Position numbers and translations under genes: made by a program
From: a bacterium
GTDB lineage: Bacteria > Lernaellota > Lernaellaia > JACKCT01
Length of the DNA: 51,829 nucleotides
Direction of reading: 5' to 3'
Assembly (NCBI GenBank): GCA_019912885.1
Contig: JAIOHV010000150.1
Location: 1 to 51,829, forward strand
The notes under the pieces: generated by a model
Seen by the model: the letters and a program-made list of their open reading frames with translations, nothing else
What the model was told of the DNA's origin: nothing
The model's database searches: none
Shown here: positions 2,908 through 46,190 of the stretch, in pieces
Numbering within the stretch: position 1 is the first letter of the stretch
Layout of the letters: each line of letters begins with the position of its first letter

Positions 2908-3591
2908 TTAAAAGATCGACACGAACACCGGCGCGCCGCAGTCCGGGCCGCCGCCGGTGCAATCCCACACGAGTTTCACGCGCGCGGCCCAGGGGCACCA
3001 CGTCGTCGGATTCGCGAGCCAGCCGGCGGCGTCCTGCTCCACGTAACACGGCGCGGCGTCGCACAGCTCGATCCACACGTCGCCGAAGGTCACGCCGTCC
3101 GGGTCGTGGCGGTACGCGTAGCCGGGGTTGTGCGTCGCGTCGAGTTCGATCGGCCCGCCGGGGATGCCGAGCGTGTCGGCCGACGGCGCGCTTGCGAGCC
3201 ACGACTCGATGTGCGCGACGCCTTCCGCACCCGTAACCCACGTGTAGAAGAACTGCCCGACCGCGTTGAACGCGAGCAGATAACCTTCGGTGGGCCACGC
3301 CGTTTGCGCATGCCACGCGCCGCAGGCGTCGTCGTCGTCATCGCCGGTGTCATCGTCCGACGTGTCGTCGTCGCCGGTATCGTCGTCGTCGTCGTCATCG
3401 TCCGCGTCGTCGTCCGGCGCCGTGTCGTCGTCCGATTCATCGTCGTCGATCGAGTGGTCGTCATCCGCATCGTCTTTCGCCGCGTCGTCACCGTCCGCGT
3501 CGTCGTCGTCGCTATCCGCGCACGAACACGAAACGCAAAGCATCAGCGCCGCGATCAGCAGAGCGGCAAGAATCGGGCGTCCGTTTCGCAT
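2908..3591 (-). CDS. Asp-rich lipoprotein, 227 residues
   Basis: The N-terminus MRNGRPILAALLIAALMLCVSCSC is a lipoprotein signal with the lipid-attachment Cys in the CVSCSC cluster. The ATG at 3591 is chosen over a TTG at 3612 because it begins directly at the basic n-region. A tract of roughly 65 residues made almost only of Asp with scattered Ser, Thr and Ala follows, then a compact C-terminal domain of about 130 residues with six Cys and many Trp and Tyr, suggesting a disulfide-bonded extracytoplasmic domain. The architecture matches the larger lipoprotein at the left edge. No enzyme motif is visible and the function is unknown. Confidence 0.8.
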   Translation of the reverse strand: MRNGRPILAALLIAALMLCVSCSCADSDDDDADGDDAAKDDADDDHSIDDDESDDDTAPDDDADDDDDDDDTGDDDTSDDDTGDDDDDACGAWHAQTAWPTEGYLLAFNAVGQFFYTWVTGAEGVAHIESWLASAPSADTLGIPGGPIELDATHNPGYAYRHDPDGVTFGDVWIELCDAAPCYVEQDAAGWLANPTTWCPWAARVKLVWDCTGGGPDCGAPVFVSIF

Positions 3592-41264: not shown

Positions 41265-44200
41265 CCCGCCTCGTCCTGATGCTGCGACCGCATGCCGCCT
41301 ACTGCGTGAATACTTTTTCTCGCGCATTGACATCGTGGCGGCCCGGCAGTCGTGGATCGACCGCAAGACCCAGGAACGCATCACGCAACCGCGTCCGGTG
41401 ACGGGCGATGCATATCTGGACGCGCTGATTGCTTTCCACGTTTCCGGCCCCGATCCGAGCAAGGCCCCGGCGCTCAACTACATCAACCGCAAAACCAACG
41501 GCCTCGTCGCGGACAAGCGCGGCTTTGATCGGGTCGGCAGCTATGCCGTGGCCCCGGACAATACGACCGTCTGGCTCTGCTTCGACTTCGATGGGCCGGG
41601 CCATCCGCTGCCGCTGGCTGATCCACTGGCGACGATGCTCGCCTGCGTGGAACGCTGCCGTGCGCTCGGTATCCCGGCGCATATTGAAAAGTCAGGCAGC
41701 GGCCACGGTTGGCATCTCTGGGTGTTTTTCGAAGCGCCAGTGCCCGCTGCCGATGCGCGACTGCTCGCGCATTTCGTTGCACCGACCGGCCATTTCCTTG
41801 TCAGCGGCGAATCCGCCGACATCCGGGCCGGCCGCGGAATCGAATGCTTCCCGAAGCAGAACAGCGTCAGCGACAAACCGTTCCGCGCGGGCAACATGGT
41901 TTGGTTGCCGTTCTGGTACGGGGCAAAGGACGGCGGCAATCAGTTTTATCGGATTGAGGACGGCGGAAGCCTTGTCCCGTTTGCGCCCGATGGGTTCGAC
42001 CGTCTGGCGGCCGCGCGGCTCCAGGATATCCTCGCGCAGGTACCCGACGAAATCCGGCGCTTCGTCTTGAAAACGAAGGGTGTACTAAAAGAGGCGTCGG
42101 CCCCCAAAAGTAGTCCACCCTCGGCTCCCGGAAATTTCGCACCCACAGATTCTGCCGTGGTCCACGCGGCGCTCGACCACATCTCGCCCGACTGCTCCTA
42201 CGACGACTGGCTCCATATCGGCATGGCGCTCCACCACTGGGACGCGCAGGCGGGCCTCGCGATCTGGGAAGCGTGGAGCGCGCGCGGCGAGAAGTATGTG
42301 GCCGGGGAACCATCGCTCAAGTGGGACGGCTTCACGTCCGGCGGCGGCGTCACGCTCGGCACGCTGTTCGACATGGCGAAGAAAGCAGGATGGACGCCGC
42401 CCGCGCATCAGCGAACGCCGCTGCCGACCGATGCAGAGATCGCCGCATTCATGGACATTGATCCGGCGGCGCTGCCGGTGACAAGTGCCGCCGCCACTCC
42501 GGAGCGCGCTGAAATCCTGCGATGTCTGACGCAATCAGCGGAAGCGCTGAGTCCCAAGGAGATCGCCGAGCGGCTCAACAAAGATTATTGGGCTGTCCAA
42601 AAAACCCTCAACCGCATGTCCAAATCGGGTCAGATCGAGAAATTTGGACATGGCAAGTACCGGGGTTTGGACACATCACCTGTCCAAATGGACGATTTGG
42701 ATACCCGCGAGCCTGTCCAATTGGACACTTCGCCTGTCCAAACGAACCATTTGGACACGTCACGCCCTGTCCAAAACGGCGATTTGGACACCCCGCGCGG
42801 TTCTCTCTCGCGCAATTTGGACACCTATGATGATCGCCCTCGCCTCCCCACCGTCGTCGTCAAGCGTCAATTGCGATACGAAACGGGGGACGCGTGGGCG
42901 GTGGTCCACGCCTCCAATTATCCGCCCAAGTTGTTCCAGAGAACCGGCGGGCTCGTGCGCCTAGCCCAGACCGACAATGCGCCGGTGATCATGCCGGTCG
43001 GTGAGACCGCACTTCTCGGGCACCTCTCACAGATTGCCAATTGGGTCGTTCAGACCAAGGACATGGAAGTTCCCGTGCATCCGCCTCGGAACGTCGTCGC
43101 GGTGATGGCGGCACTGCCGGACCCGACCCTGCCGCACCTTGAAACGGTCTCGTCCACTCCCATGTTCGACCACGACGGCTCTTTGATCGCCGCGCCAGGT
43201 TACCACCGCGAGGCGCGACTCTGGATGCATCGTCCTCTCAATTTCGACGTGGGCGATATTCCCGCGAATCCGACTTCGCATGAGATCGATGAAGCACGCT
43301 CCTTGCTGCTCGACGACTTGCTTGTTGATTTTCCGTTTGCGTCCGACGCGGACAGATGCCACGCGATGGCCGCGCTGTTTCCTACGTTCGTGCGCCGCAT
43401 GATCCACGGCCCGCTGCCCATCCATCTTATCGAAGCACCGACACCCGGCACCGGCAAATCGCTTCTGGCCGAAACCGTTTCCCTCGTGTGCGTGGGGCAC
43501 GGCGCCGATGTGACCACGTTCGACAGAGACGAAAACGACACGCGCAAAAAGATCACGGCGATTCTCGCTTCCGCCCCCCAGATCGTGCTGGTGGACAACC
43601 TGCGCAAGGGACTTCTGTCGTCGCAGATCGCGGCGGCGATCACGGCGGATATCTGGACGGACCGCCTGCTCCAGACCTCGCAGATGCTCCGGTTGCCCAA
43701 CCGCGCCATGTGGTTCGCCACGGCCAACAATCCCGCGCTCTCGATGGAAAACGCCCGCCGCAGCATCCGCATCCGTGTGGACGCCAAGATGGATCGACCG
43801 GGACGGCGGCGCGGCTTCAAGCACAACCCGCTGCGACAGTGGGTCATGGATAACCGCCCCGCATTGGTACGCGCTGTCCTCACCATCATTCGCGGTTGGG
43901 TCGCGGCGGGTATGCCGAACACAGACCAGGTGCTCGGCTCCTTCGAGTCATGGTCCAAGGTCGTCGGCGGAATTCTCCAATGGCTCGAGGTGCCCGGCTT
44001 CCTCGCCAACGCCGAAGAGCTTTACGAGATCGCCGACACCGAGGGCAGTGAATGGCGCGAGTTCGTCGCGGCATGGTGGGATCGCTTTGGTCCCCGGTTC
44101 GTCACGACAACCGATCTGCTCGGCCTCGCTACCGCCAAGGACCTTCTCGGCACCGTTATCGGCGATGGCGGCTCGCGCTCGCAGAAGATCCGTCTTGGCC

Positions 44201-44673
44201 GCGCTCTCGGCACGATGCGTGATCGCCAGTTTGATTTGTACCGGATCAAGATGAGCCGGGAGCGGCATTCCAAGCAGTGGGAATACGGTCTTGAGAAGGT
44301 CGATGAAAGCGAGAACCGCACCGCCTCAGTCCATCCGCTGTTTGCGGGTAGTGCGGGTAGTGGTGCGGGTAGTGCCGACCCCACTACCCGCATACAAAAT
44401 ACTCATGAAAACGGTCAGTTGGAATGCGCTGCGGGTAGTGCGGGTAGTGTACCTGAAACGTTAACGCATACGCATGCGCACGCGCCCGCACATACATGCG
44501 ATGCATCAACCTCAAAAAACCACCCGCACTACCCGCACGGCCAGCAAGACTTTGAAAACAAAGAGAAATGTCCTGCGGGTAGTGCTTCCGACCCAAAATC
44601 GAACTACCCGCACTACCCGCAAGACATCGTCGCCGATCTTGCCGCATTCGATATCGAGGAGGAAGAATCATGA
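41257..44673 (+). CDS. archaeo-eukaryotic-type primase fused to helicase, replication protein
   Basis: The protein has 1138 residues. The AEP primase domain has the metal acids in WLCFDFDG (D110, D112), SGSGHGWHLW (146-155) and IECFPKQN. A PriCT-like segment follows around 300-370 (CSYDDWLHIGMALHHWDAQ), then a winged helix (about 411-470; LSPKEIAERLNKDYWAVQKTL). From about 470 to 525 there is an 18-residue repeat with LDT...PVQ that comes from DNA iterons. The helicase-type ATPase has Walker A PTPGTGKS (G731-S735) and Walker B IVLVDN. The C-terminal 120 residues are low complexity (AGSAGS, HYPH) and also derive from DNA repeats. It probably initiates element replication from sites within its own gene. 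Confidence 0.88.
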   Translation: MSNPPRPDAATACRLLREYFFSRIDIVAARQSWIDRKTQERITQPRPVTGDAYLDALIAFHVSGPDPSKAPALNYINRKTNGLVADKRGFDRVGSYAVAPDNTTVWLCFDFDGPGHPLPLADPLATMLACVERCRALGIPAHIEKSGSGHGWHLWVFFEAPVPAADARLLAHFVAPTGHFLVSGESADIRAGRGIECFPKQNSVSDKPFRAGNMVWLPFWYGAKDGGNQFYRIEDGGSLVPFAPDGFDRLAAARLQDILAQVPDEIRRFVLKTKGVLKEASAPKSSPPSAPGNFAPTDSAVVHAALDHISPDCSYDDWLHIGMALHHWDAQAGLAIWEAWSARGEKYVAGEPSLKWDGFTSGGGVTLGTLFDMAKKAGWTPPAHQRTPLPTDAEIAAFMDIDPAALPVTSAAATPERAEILRCLTQSAEALSPKEIAERLNKDYWAVQKTLNRMSKSGQIEKFGHGKYRGLDTSPVQMDDLDTREPVQLDTSPVQTNHLDTSRPVQNGDLDTPRGSLSRNLDTYDDRPRLPTVVVKRQLRYETGDAWAVVHASNYPPKLFQRTGGLVRLAQTDNAPVIMPVGETALLGHLSQIANWVVQTKDMEVPVHPPRNVVAVMAALPDPTLPHLETVSSTPMFDHDGSLIAAPGYHREARLWMHRPLNFDVGDIPANPTSHEIDEARSLLLDDLLVDFPFASDADRCHAMAALFPTFVRRMIHGPLPIHLIEAPTPGTGKSLLAETVSLVCVGHGADVTTFDRDENDTRKKITAILASAPQIVLVDNLRKGLLSSQIAAAITADIWTDRLLQTSQMLRLPNRAMWFATANNPALSMENARRSIRIRVDAKMDRPGRRRGFKHNPLRQWVMDNRPALVRAVLTIIRGWVAAGMPNTDQVLGSFESWSKVVGGILQWLEVPGFLANAEELYEIADTEGSEWREFVAAWWDRFGPRFVTTTDLLGLATAKDLLGTVIGDGGSRSQKIRLGRALGTMRDRQFDLYRIKMSRERHSKQWEYGLEKVDESENRTASVHPLFAGSAGSGAGSADPTTRIQNTHENGQLECAAGSAGSVPETLTHTHAHAPAHTCDASTSKNHPHYPHGQQDFENKEKCPAGSASDPKSNYPHYPQDIVADLAAFDIEEEES
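42594..42823. repeat. inverted iteron array TGTCCAA/TTGGACA inside primase gene
   Basis: TGTCCAA starts at 42594, 42617, 42681, 42714, 42735 and 42768; its complement TTGGACA starts at 42644, 42667, 42721, 42751, 42784 and 42817, with one variant TTGGATA at 42697. Part is a 54-base tandem repeat (42667 to 42721), but the copies at 42617 and 42644 are in another reading frame, so the DNA word itself appears to be conserved. Candidate replication origin or initiator-binding site. Confidence 0.8.
44344..44620. repeat. second inverted iteron array GCGGGTAGTG/CACTACCCGC
   Basis: GCGGGTAGTG starts at 44344, 44353, 44365, 44431, 44440 and 44575; CACTACCCGC starts at 44382, 44527 and 44611, with ACTACCCGC at 44603. 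The complement at 44382 is in a different reading frame from the other two. The array lies in the last 330 bases of the primase-helicase gene, about 1.5 kb from the first iteron family and with a different word. Confidence 0.78.
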
Positions 44674-45866: not shown

Positions 45867-46190
45867 ATGAAAGCCGGCACCGAAAAATCGACTCGCATCA
45901 TCCACTGCGCCAACTGCCTGCACTGCAAGGTTTATCTCGAACGGGCCGAGCGCGGCGCTAATGCCGAACGTCGCGTCCGCTGCGCCGTCGGCAATTGGCA
46001 GACGCCCTCGAACAAGGAACGGACTTACTGCTACCACACGGTCCTCAAGCGCCGCATGGTCTCGTGCCCCGATTACAACAGCATGGGCGAACGCGACCGC
46101 GACGAGTTTCTGAAGGACCTGCGCGACAACCTGCCCGTCGAGCGCGACGTGGTCGATGTGAGCGCGCTGGCCGTCGGAGCAAATGCGTGA
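45867..46190 (+). CDS. Cys-rich small protein, zinc-ribbon-like
   Basis: The protein has 107 residues; ATG 45867 has a perfect GGAGG 4-5 bases upstream, better than ATG 45831. Cys pattern CANCLHC, RRVRCAVGNW, TYCYHT, VSCPDY suggests a zinc-binding fold. Family unknown; typical small early phage gene. Confidence 0.65.
   Translation: MKAGTEKSTRIIHCANCLHCKVYLERAERGANAERRVRCAVGNWQTPSNKERTYCYHTVLKRRMVSCPDYNSMGERDRDEFLKDLRDNLPVERDVVDVSALAVGANA

Follow-up and report, generated by a model that had tools for sequence, protein, structure and literature searches.

Why should the last part of a primase-helicase gene carry a short DNA word many times over, in both orientations, and what does this array do? 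The gene lies in a prophage-like stretch of the window, by which we mean the whole 51,829-nucleotide stretch of DNA that was analysed. The array, called array 2 here, covers 44344-44620. We conclude that it is an initiator-binding iteron array and most likely the replication origin of a prophage replication module, with a probability of roughly 0.84. Judged from sequence, it is almost certainly the landing site of the replication protein encoded by the same gene, and probably an origin of the P4/SaPI type that is embedded in its initiator gene.

The gene and its surroundings

Pfam searches of the gene product found an AEP-TOTE primase domain (9e-20) and PriCT_2 (1e-21), and PHROG 10537 matched across the helicase part (9e-86). 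The helicase gave no Pfam family above the cut-off, and a sequence search for a solved structure found no relative of it in the PDB. In Foldseek its AlphaFold model matched the SaPI-type initiator PriRep1 best (7pds, E 6e-8; also 7ola), ahead of the D5/E5 poxvirus helicases, NrS-1 and Cch (VIA Z about 12-13). The helicase is followed by a C-terminal winged helix, WH2, the AlphaFold model of which has the elements H416-425, H430-433, H438-451, E460-466 and E473-479, and array 2 stands at the end of the gene directly behind it. An iteron plasmid with a Rep_3-type initiator was considered and rejected; the gene has no Pfam hit to a Rep_3/RepA-type initiator domain.

SSB-like, ERCC4 nuclease and RecD2-like genes precede the gene and terminase-like genes follow it at 46.5-51.6 kb. 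As regards the gene content expected of a satellite, the window contains these terminase-like genes and the contig ends at both sides. The cumulative GC-skew minimum at 46136 is 1.5 kb from array 2, in the same region but not at the array, and is weak evidence.

Table 1. Features of the primase-helicase locus; positions are those of the window.
Feature	Position	Strand	Remarks
Primase-helicase gene, 1138 aa	41257..44673	+	AEP-TOTE primase, PriCT_2, WH1, AAA+ helicase, WH2, low-complexity tail
WH1, internal winged helix, residues 414-469	42496..42663	+	Sub-threshold Pfam HVO_A0114 3e-5; AlphaFold
Array 1, 12-13 copies of TGTCCAAA/TTTGGACA	42594..42823		Both orientations
AAA+ helicase domain, self-loading initiator (PriRep/D5-like) type	42862..44088	+	AlphaFold pLDDT 83; Foldseek
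WH2, C-terminal winged helix	44089..44301	+	Predicted model; covariation
WH2 recognition helix, residues 973-986	44173-44214	+	Ile978 codon 44188-44190
Array 2, left half	44344..44449		+++ − ++ (44344, 44353, 44365, 44382−, 44431, 44440)
Alternating purine-pyrimidine tract, 22 bp, dyad centre	44464..44485
Array 2, right half	44518..44620		−− + −− (44518 degenerate, 44527, 44575+, 44602, 44611)
Array 2, exact GCGGGTAGTG copies	44344, 44353, 44365, 44431, 44440, 44575	+
Array 2, exact GCGGGTAGTG copies	44382, 44527, 44611	−
Array 2, degenerate copies	44602, 44518	−	One mismatch (44602), two mismatches (44518)

The word and its copies

The word GCGGGTAGTG is present in array 2 in nine exact copies, six direct and three inverted, together with one to two degenerate ones. 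An earlier note on this DNA had counted six occurrences and three to four inverted copies in 280 bases, and the recount agrees with it. The same is true of its remarks that the array yields an odd low-complexity peptide, since the copies translate to AGSAGS and HYPH, and that the inverted copy at 44382 lies in a frame different from that of all other copies. In the whole window there are 14 matches to GCGGGTAGTG with at most one mismatch, as compared to 2.65 expected, and 0 of 100 shuffles reach 14. The note had named genome-wide dispersal of the word as the finding that would speak against its reading. However, the 4.8-Mb genome contains 11 exact copies, nine of them within array 2 and two elsewhere; a dispersed host repeat is therefore ruled out and the reading survives.

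We then used a null model in which the peptide is kept, codons are drawn by the gene's own codon usage and the sites of the best word are counted. Array 2 has 11 such sites, whereas the null averages 3.7 and never goes above 7, which indicates that the array does not simply follow from encoding the AGSAGS/HYPH peptide. Array 1, which lies further upstream in the gene, has 13 sites against a mean of 5.6 and a maximum of 9. Both arrays thus exceed the synonymous null, and the claim of two distinct arrays in one replication gene stands. With coding GTC trinucleotide runs set aside, they are the only arrays in the window with at least seven sites per 300 bp. GTCGTCGTC-like trinucleotides form two runs, at 1915-2062 and 3325-3499 of the window, with 9-11 copies per 300 bp. 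The word was also tried as a diagnostic marker and rejected: a 19-mer scan of viral contigs gave five loci, mostly 3-copy runs, and the helicase of the primase-helicase family was detected at none of the five.

Relatives retain the array as DNA

Close relatives are few, namely L015 from the same genome (63%) and L007 and L008 from related MAGs. Profile scans yielded 49 loci in viral contigs; a viral scan with full-length alignment gave no matches. About 25 relatives, with 31-66% identity, have a word of 9-10 bases in 8-14 copies and both orientations directly behind WH2. As controls, dinucleotide shuffles gave 3-6 copies in most of them and upstream DNA 3-5. The words are TGCGGGACAT (L015), TGCGGGACGT (L039), TTGGGGATGT (L044), TTGGGGACCT (L045), TTGGGGATCT (L052), ATAAGGACGT (L069), CGCGGTACCT (L058) and ATGGAAACG (L086), among others. 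The array was not detected in L056, L067, L092, L093, L096, L097, L099 and L100.

The position of the stop codon is informative. It comes ahead of the whole array in L052, L055, L041, L069, L054 and L066, ahead of every site except one in L063, L073 and L061, and ahead of most sites in L050 and L060; the reading frame passes through the array in the window and in the remaining array-bearing loci. The fact that the array lies wholly or largely beyond the stop codon in about ten relatives indicates that selection acts on the DNA and that the array is kept as DNA; the comparison with homologues that had been proposed as a check therefore came out in favour of the reading. In L045 a DnaG-type zinc ribbon and Toprim replace the AEP domain, with helicase, WH2 and array as in the other relatives. 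By this comparison the primase end is exchangeable among relatives.

Small plasmids with related Reps also have such an array beside rep. The word of the window itself, GCGGGTAGT, occurs in 14 copies after the rep stop codon, in an intergenic gap of a 28-kb Streptomyces cyaneofuscatus plasmid (L098, 3861-4083), the Rep of which is distantly related to the protein of the window (about 32% identity). This may reflect either convergence or shared ancestry. Behind the rep stop of plasmid pCM32 (L101), AAACCCGGA recurs 12 times, for the most part in direct orientation and with no clear dyad map.

The same genome contains two or three further loci of the family: L015 (G000:C57:29764-33132), L021 (G000:C6 end) and L019 (G000:C197 end). 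Their words are TGCGGGACAT, TGCGG[A/T]ATGT and the linker word AACCGGACA; both L021 and L019 run into a contig edge and could be the two parts of a single gene. The helicase part of L008 (7000-8300), like that of L011, L016, L020 and L022, has in-frame stops or frame changes, either as a pseudogene or from assembly errors. In L092 a RecD2-like helicase ORF from near 1171 is apparently split by an intein-like insert (CLHPDTLVETPEGLFPI...) with an ETP repeat.

Site map and match to phage P4 ori

The relatives have a common signed site map, +++ − ++ facing −− + −−−, which is a dyad; in most loci each half comprises 5-8 sites. Across loci the expected orientation was found at 104 of 109 outer sites and 43 of 51 middle sites. 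The map was centred on the largest inner gap with the help of the inner pairs and the sum of the signs, which makes the inner pairs agree by construction. The outer left triplet is inverted in L015 and L037, and the L007 array, read by eye, has the L015-type order. In the window the right half of array 2 is missing one expected outer site.

The left half in the window has site offsets of 0, 9, 21, 43, 87 and 96 with the signs +++−++. The annotated type-1 repeats of P4 ori (NC_001609) have offsets of 0, 10, 21, 43, 86 and 96 with the signs −−−+−−. All six sites agree within 3 bp, and none of 200 maps with gaps and signs permuted within the locus did equally well. Averaged over 23 loci the match to the P4 map was 4.96 as compared to 3.40 for permuted maps; L015, L019, L057, L047, L063 and L066 were no better than permuted maps. 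The crr block of P4, which has the word of ori and is located just past the 3' end of the alpha gene, 4.7 kb from ori, matches the same template at four of six sites. The idea that array 1 repeats this origin map was rejected (3 of 6 sites, null 3.5). Array 2 is not P4 ori itself, because its word is TGCGGGTAGTG rather than GGTGAACAG; the P4 iteron sequence is absent, and the examined relatives differ freely in their word. The array is of P4 type by site map and protein class, not by word, and its presumed melting region differs.

This region, the spacer at the dyad centre, contains an alternating purine-pyrimidine tract, the longest alternation being 22 bp in the window as compared to a shuffle mean of 6.6. 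The tract measures 30 bp in L015 and 52 bp in L041 and L066, and in 14 of 23 loci the alternation is significant against base-shuffled spacers (p≤0.015). It also occurs where the array is non-coding, so codon usage does not account for it. Tracts of this kind are able to adopt the Z-DNA form. Unlike PICI-type origins, the spacer shows no AT-richness, with a GC content of 0.50 vs 0.56 for the array.

WH2 as candidate reader of the word

We compared the words with 453 variable columns of the helicase and WH2. The best column for a C after A in the word was residue 978 in the WH2 recognition helix, which is Thr in 16 loci, all with AC, and Ile or Val in nine, none with AC; the window has Ile978. 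On a tree built without WH2 the trait changes state several times. Counted as supported independent pairs on this tree, switches of residue 978 and of the word base agree in five cases and disagree in none (sign test p=0.0625, the lowest value that five contrasts allow), for a feature that was picked after inspection of the alignment and with words put in register by hand. Columns 1006 and 1005 rank first for word position 2 and column 1003 for position 1, in the wing; the top columns for positions 3-7 and 9 are mostly outside WH2. The word of the window, GGGTAG, is without the AT found in most Ile/Val relatives. The covariation is support, not proof, that WH2 probably reads the word of array 2. 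The earlier note had proposed to look for a protein of the element that binds the word; on this covariation the likely binder is WH2 of the gene's own product.

Array 1 and the internal winged helix

Array 1 appears to belong to another winged helix, WH1. AlphaFold models of two homologues have H26-37, H44-51, H55-68, E71-74 and E78-81, with pLDDT of about 82-92 over residues 31 to 80. An array of 8-16 sites is located right behind WH1 in all six distinct loci that have this domain; of about 18 loci without WH1, L092 has 7 sites and the others 3-5. Array 1 is thus found only where WH1 is present. Recognition helices and words, paired by eye in this small set, are, in one group, LNKDYWAVQKTLNRM with TTTGGACA in the window and LNKPYDAARKMLKRM with CCGGACA in L021 and, in the other, KDHNSTKVLLHRM with GGTTACATC in L015 and RDQNATRVLLHRM with CATTACATC in L007/L008. 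The two arrays had been described as unrelated. Their words do differ, but array 1 is tied to WH1 and is no unrelated repeat. The role that we favour for array 1, at even odds, is to offer the same protein a second place to bind, for instance to position the primase or to control copy number, among candidates that include regulation, partition and a second initiator site. We consider it equally balanced whether the protein is a dual-specificity initiator, in which WH1 beside the primase and WH2 behind the helicase each read their own array in the gene segment after that domain, so that one gene would encode the readers and also contain their targets. In this view the general form of origin would be the dyad of array 2, two P4-ori-like six-site halves around a Z-DNA-prone tract, with a word that co-evolves with WH2 and a fixed map.

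Alternative explanations

Array 2 could be an operator or an autoregulatory or incompatibility site of the same protein, like P4 crr, with the origin elsewhere in the element. The presence of a second array in the same gene is in line with this, and crr, with the same iterons as ori, lies past the end of its gene while the P4 origin is distant. However, it is the 3-1-2 map of P4 ori that the window reproduces in full, crr itself fits less well, the window has no iteron array besides array 1, and small plasmids with related Reps have such an array beside rep. We consider this explanation unlikely. Iteron clusters also serve as centromeres, and the terminase-like genes lie behind the locus, so that one may think of a parS-like partition site or a packaging or recombination site of another protein. 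Yet the array stays right behind the gene whether the primase is of the AEP or the DnaG/Toprim type, and in small plasmids too, and changes of the word follow WH2 residues; such a role is very improbable.

The least probable explanation, which we hardly credit, is that the repeats are a feature of the protein, a disordered repetitive tail grown by repeat slippage. Proteins of this kind often have disordered tails, and the copies do encode AGSAGS and HYPH. Nevertheless, the copies use both orientations and two frames, the synonymous null never exceeds seven sites as against the 11 present, relatives have the array past the stop codon, and spacing and orientation persist where the words differ. 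In contrast, the position and site map of array 2 are those of a known origin type, so the term origin is well supported. The suggestion that one array is the origin and the other a regulatory or partition site is thereby supported for array 2 in its origin part, by the P4 ori map and the SaPI-like placement.

Proposed mechanism and implications

In the origin reading, the gene product would join a primase to a hexameric AAA+ helicase, with WH2 reading TGCGGGTAGTG. Each of the two half-sites would comprise six iterons (3-1-2); they would face each other across the purine-pyrimidine tract, and each may seat one initiator hexamer, which loads itself. The hexamer would open the spacer, and priming could be carried out by the initiator's own primase domain. 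The coding status of the array would be incidental; the frame just runs through it and so gives the low-complexity tail.

The +++ − ++ / −− + −−− map, in any word and behind a C-terminal winged helix, provides a testable rule for finding origins in phages and plasmids with unannotated primase-helicases. That the map stays fixed, and is common to P4, while the word drifts suggests a constraint set by the geometry of hexamer loading. The approximately 25 natural pairs of word and reader are a starting code for winged-helix specificity, and three related primase-helicase loci with three words in one genome suggest selection for origins that do not cross-react. Literature searches on origins inside primase genes, on Z-DNA at such origins and on plasmid pCM32 gave nothing usable.

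Comparison with known systems

The locus resembles P4 ori and its alpha protein in having a primase-helicase with a C-terminal winged helix (here predicted), short iterons in both orientations and the six-site 3-1-2 map, with spacing within 1 bp in the window. It resembles P4 crr in the location of an iteron array, which is just 3' of the initiator gene in crr and at its 3' end in array 2. Unlike P4, it has the word TGCGGGTAGTG instead of GGTGAACAG, a dyad of two half-sites instead of one, an array inside the ORF, an AEP instead of a Toprim primase, and an alternating purine-pyrimidine spacer instead of an A+T-rich flank. Lambda O and N15 repA also have origin DNA within the initiator coding sequence; their proteins and iteron map differ.

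The initiators of SaPI and SCCmec bind repeats directly downstream of their own genes via a C-terminal domain (PMC7581432). In the SaPI/PICI replicon the origin is adjacent to the 3' end of rep and has two iteron sets (PMC6092414, PMC7581432), with an AT-rich region between the sets in PICI origins (PMC6092414). Array 2 likewise lies at the 3' end of its rep gene and has two sets of iterons that flank the presumed site of melting. As in SaPI/PICI Rep-ori and SCCmec Cch2, the initiator is a self-loading AAA+ protein with a C-terminal DNA-binding domain (here predicted). In contrast to SaPI/PICI, the element is a prophage with terminase-like genes, the iterons lie in translated sequence, the spacer lacks AT-richness and a second winged helix has its own array. 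The kind of origin is thus already known; what is new here is a dyad of two P4-ori-like halves inside the initiator's own coding sequence.
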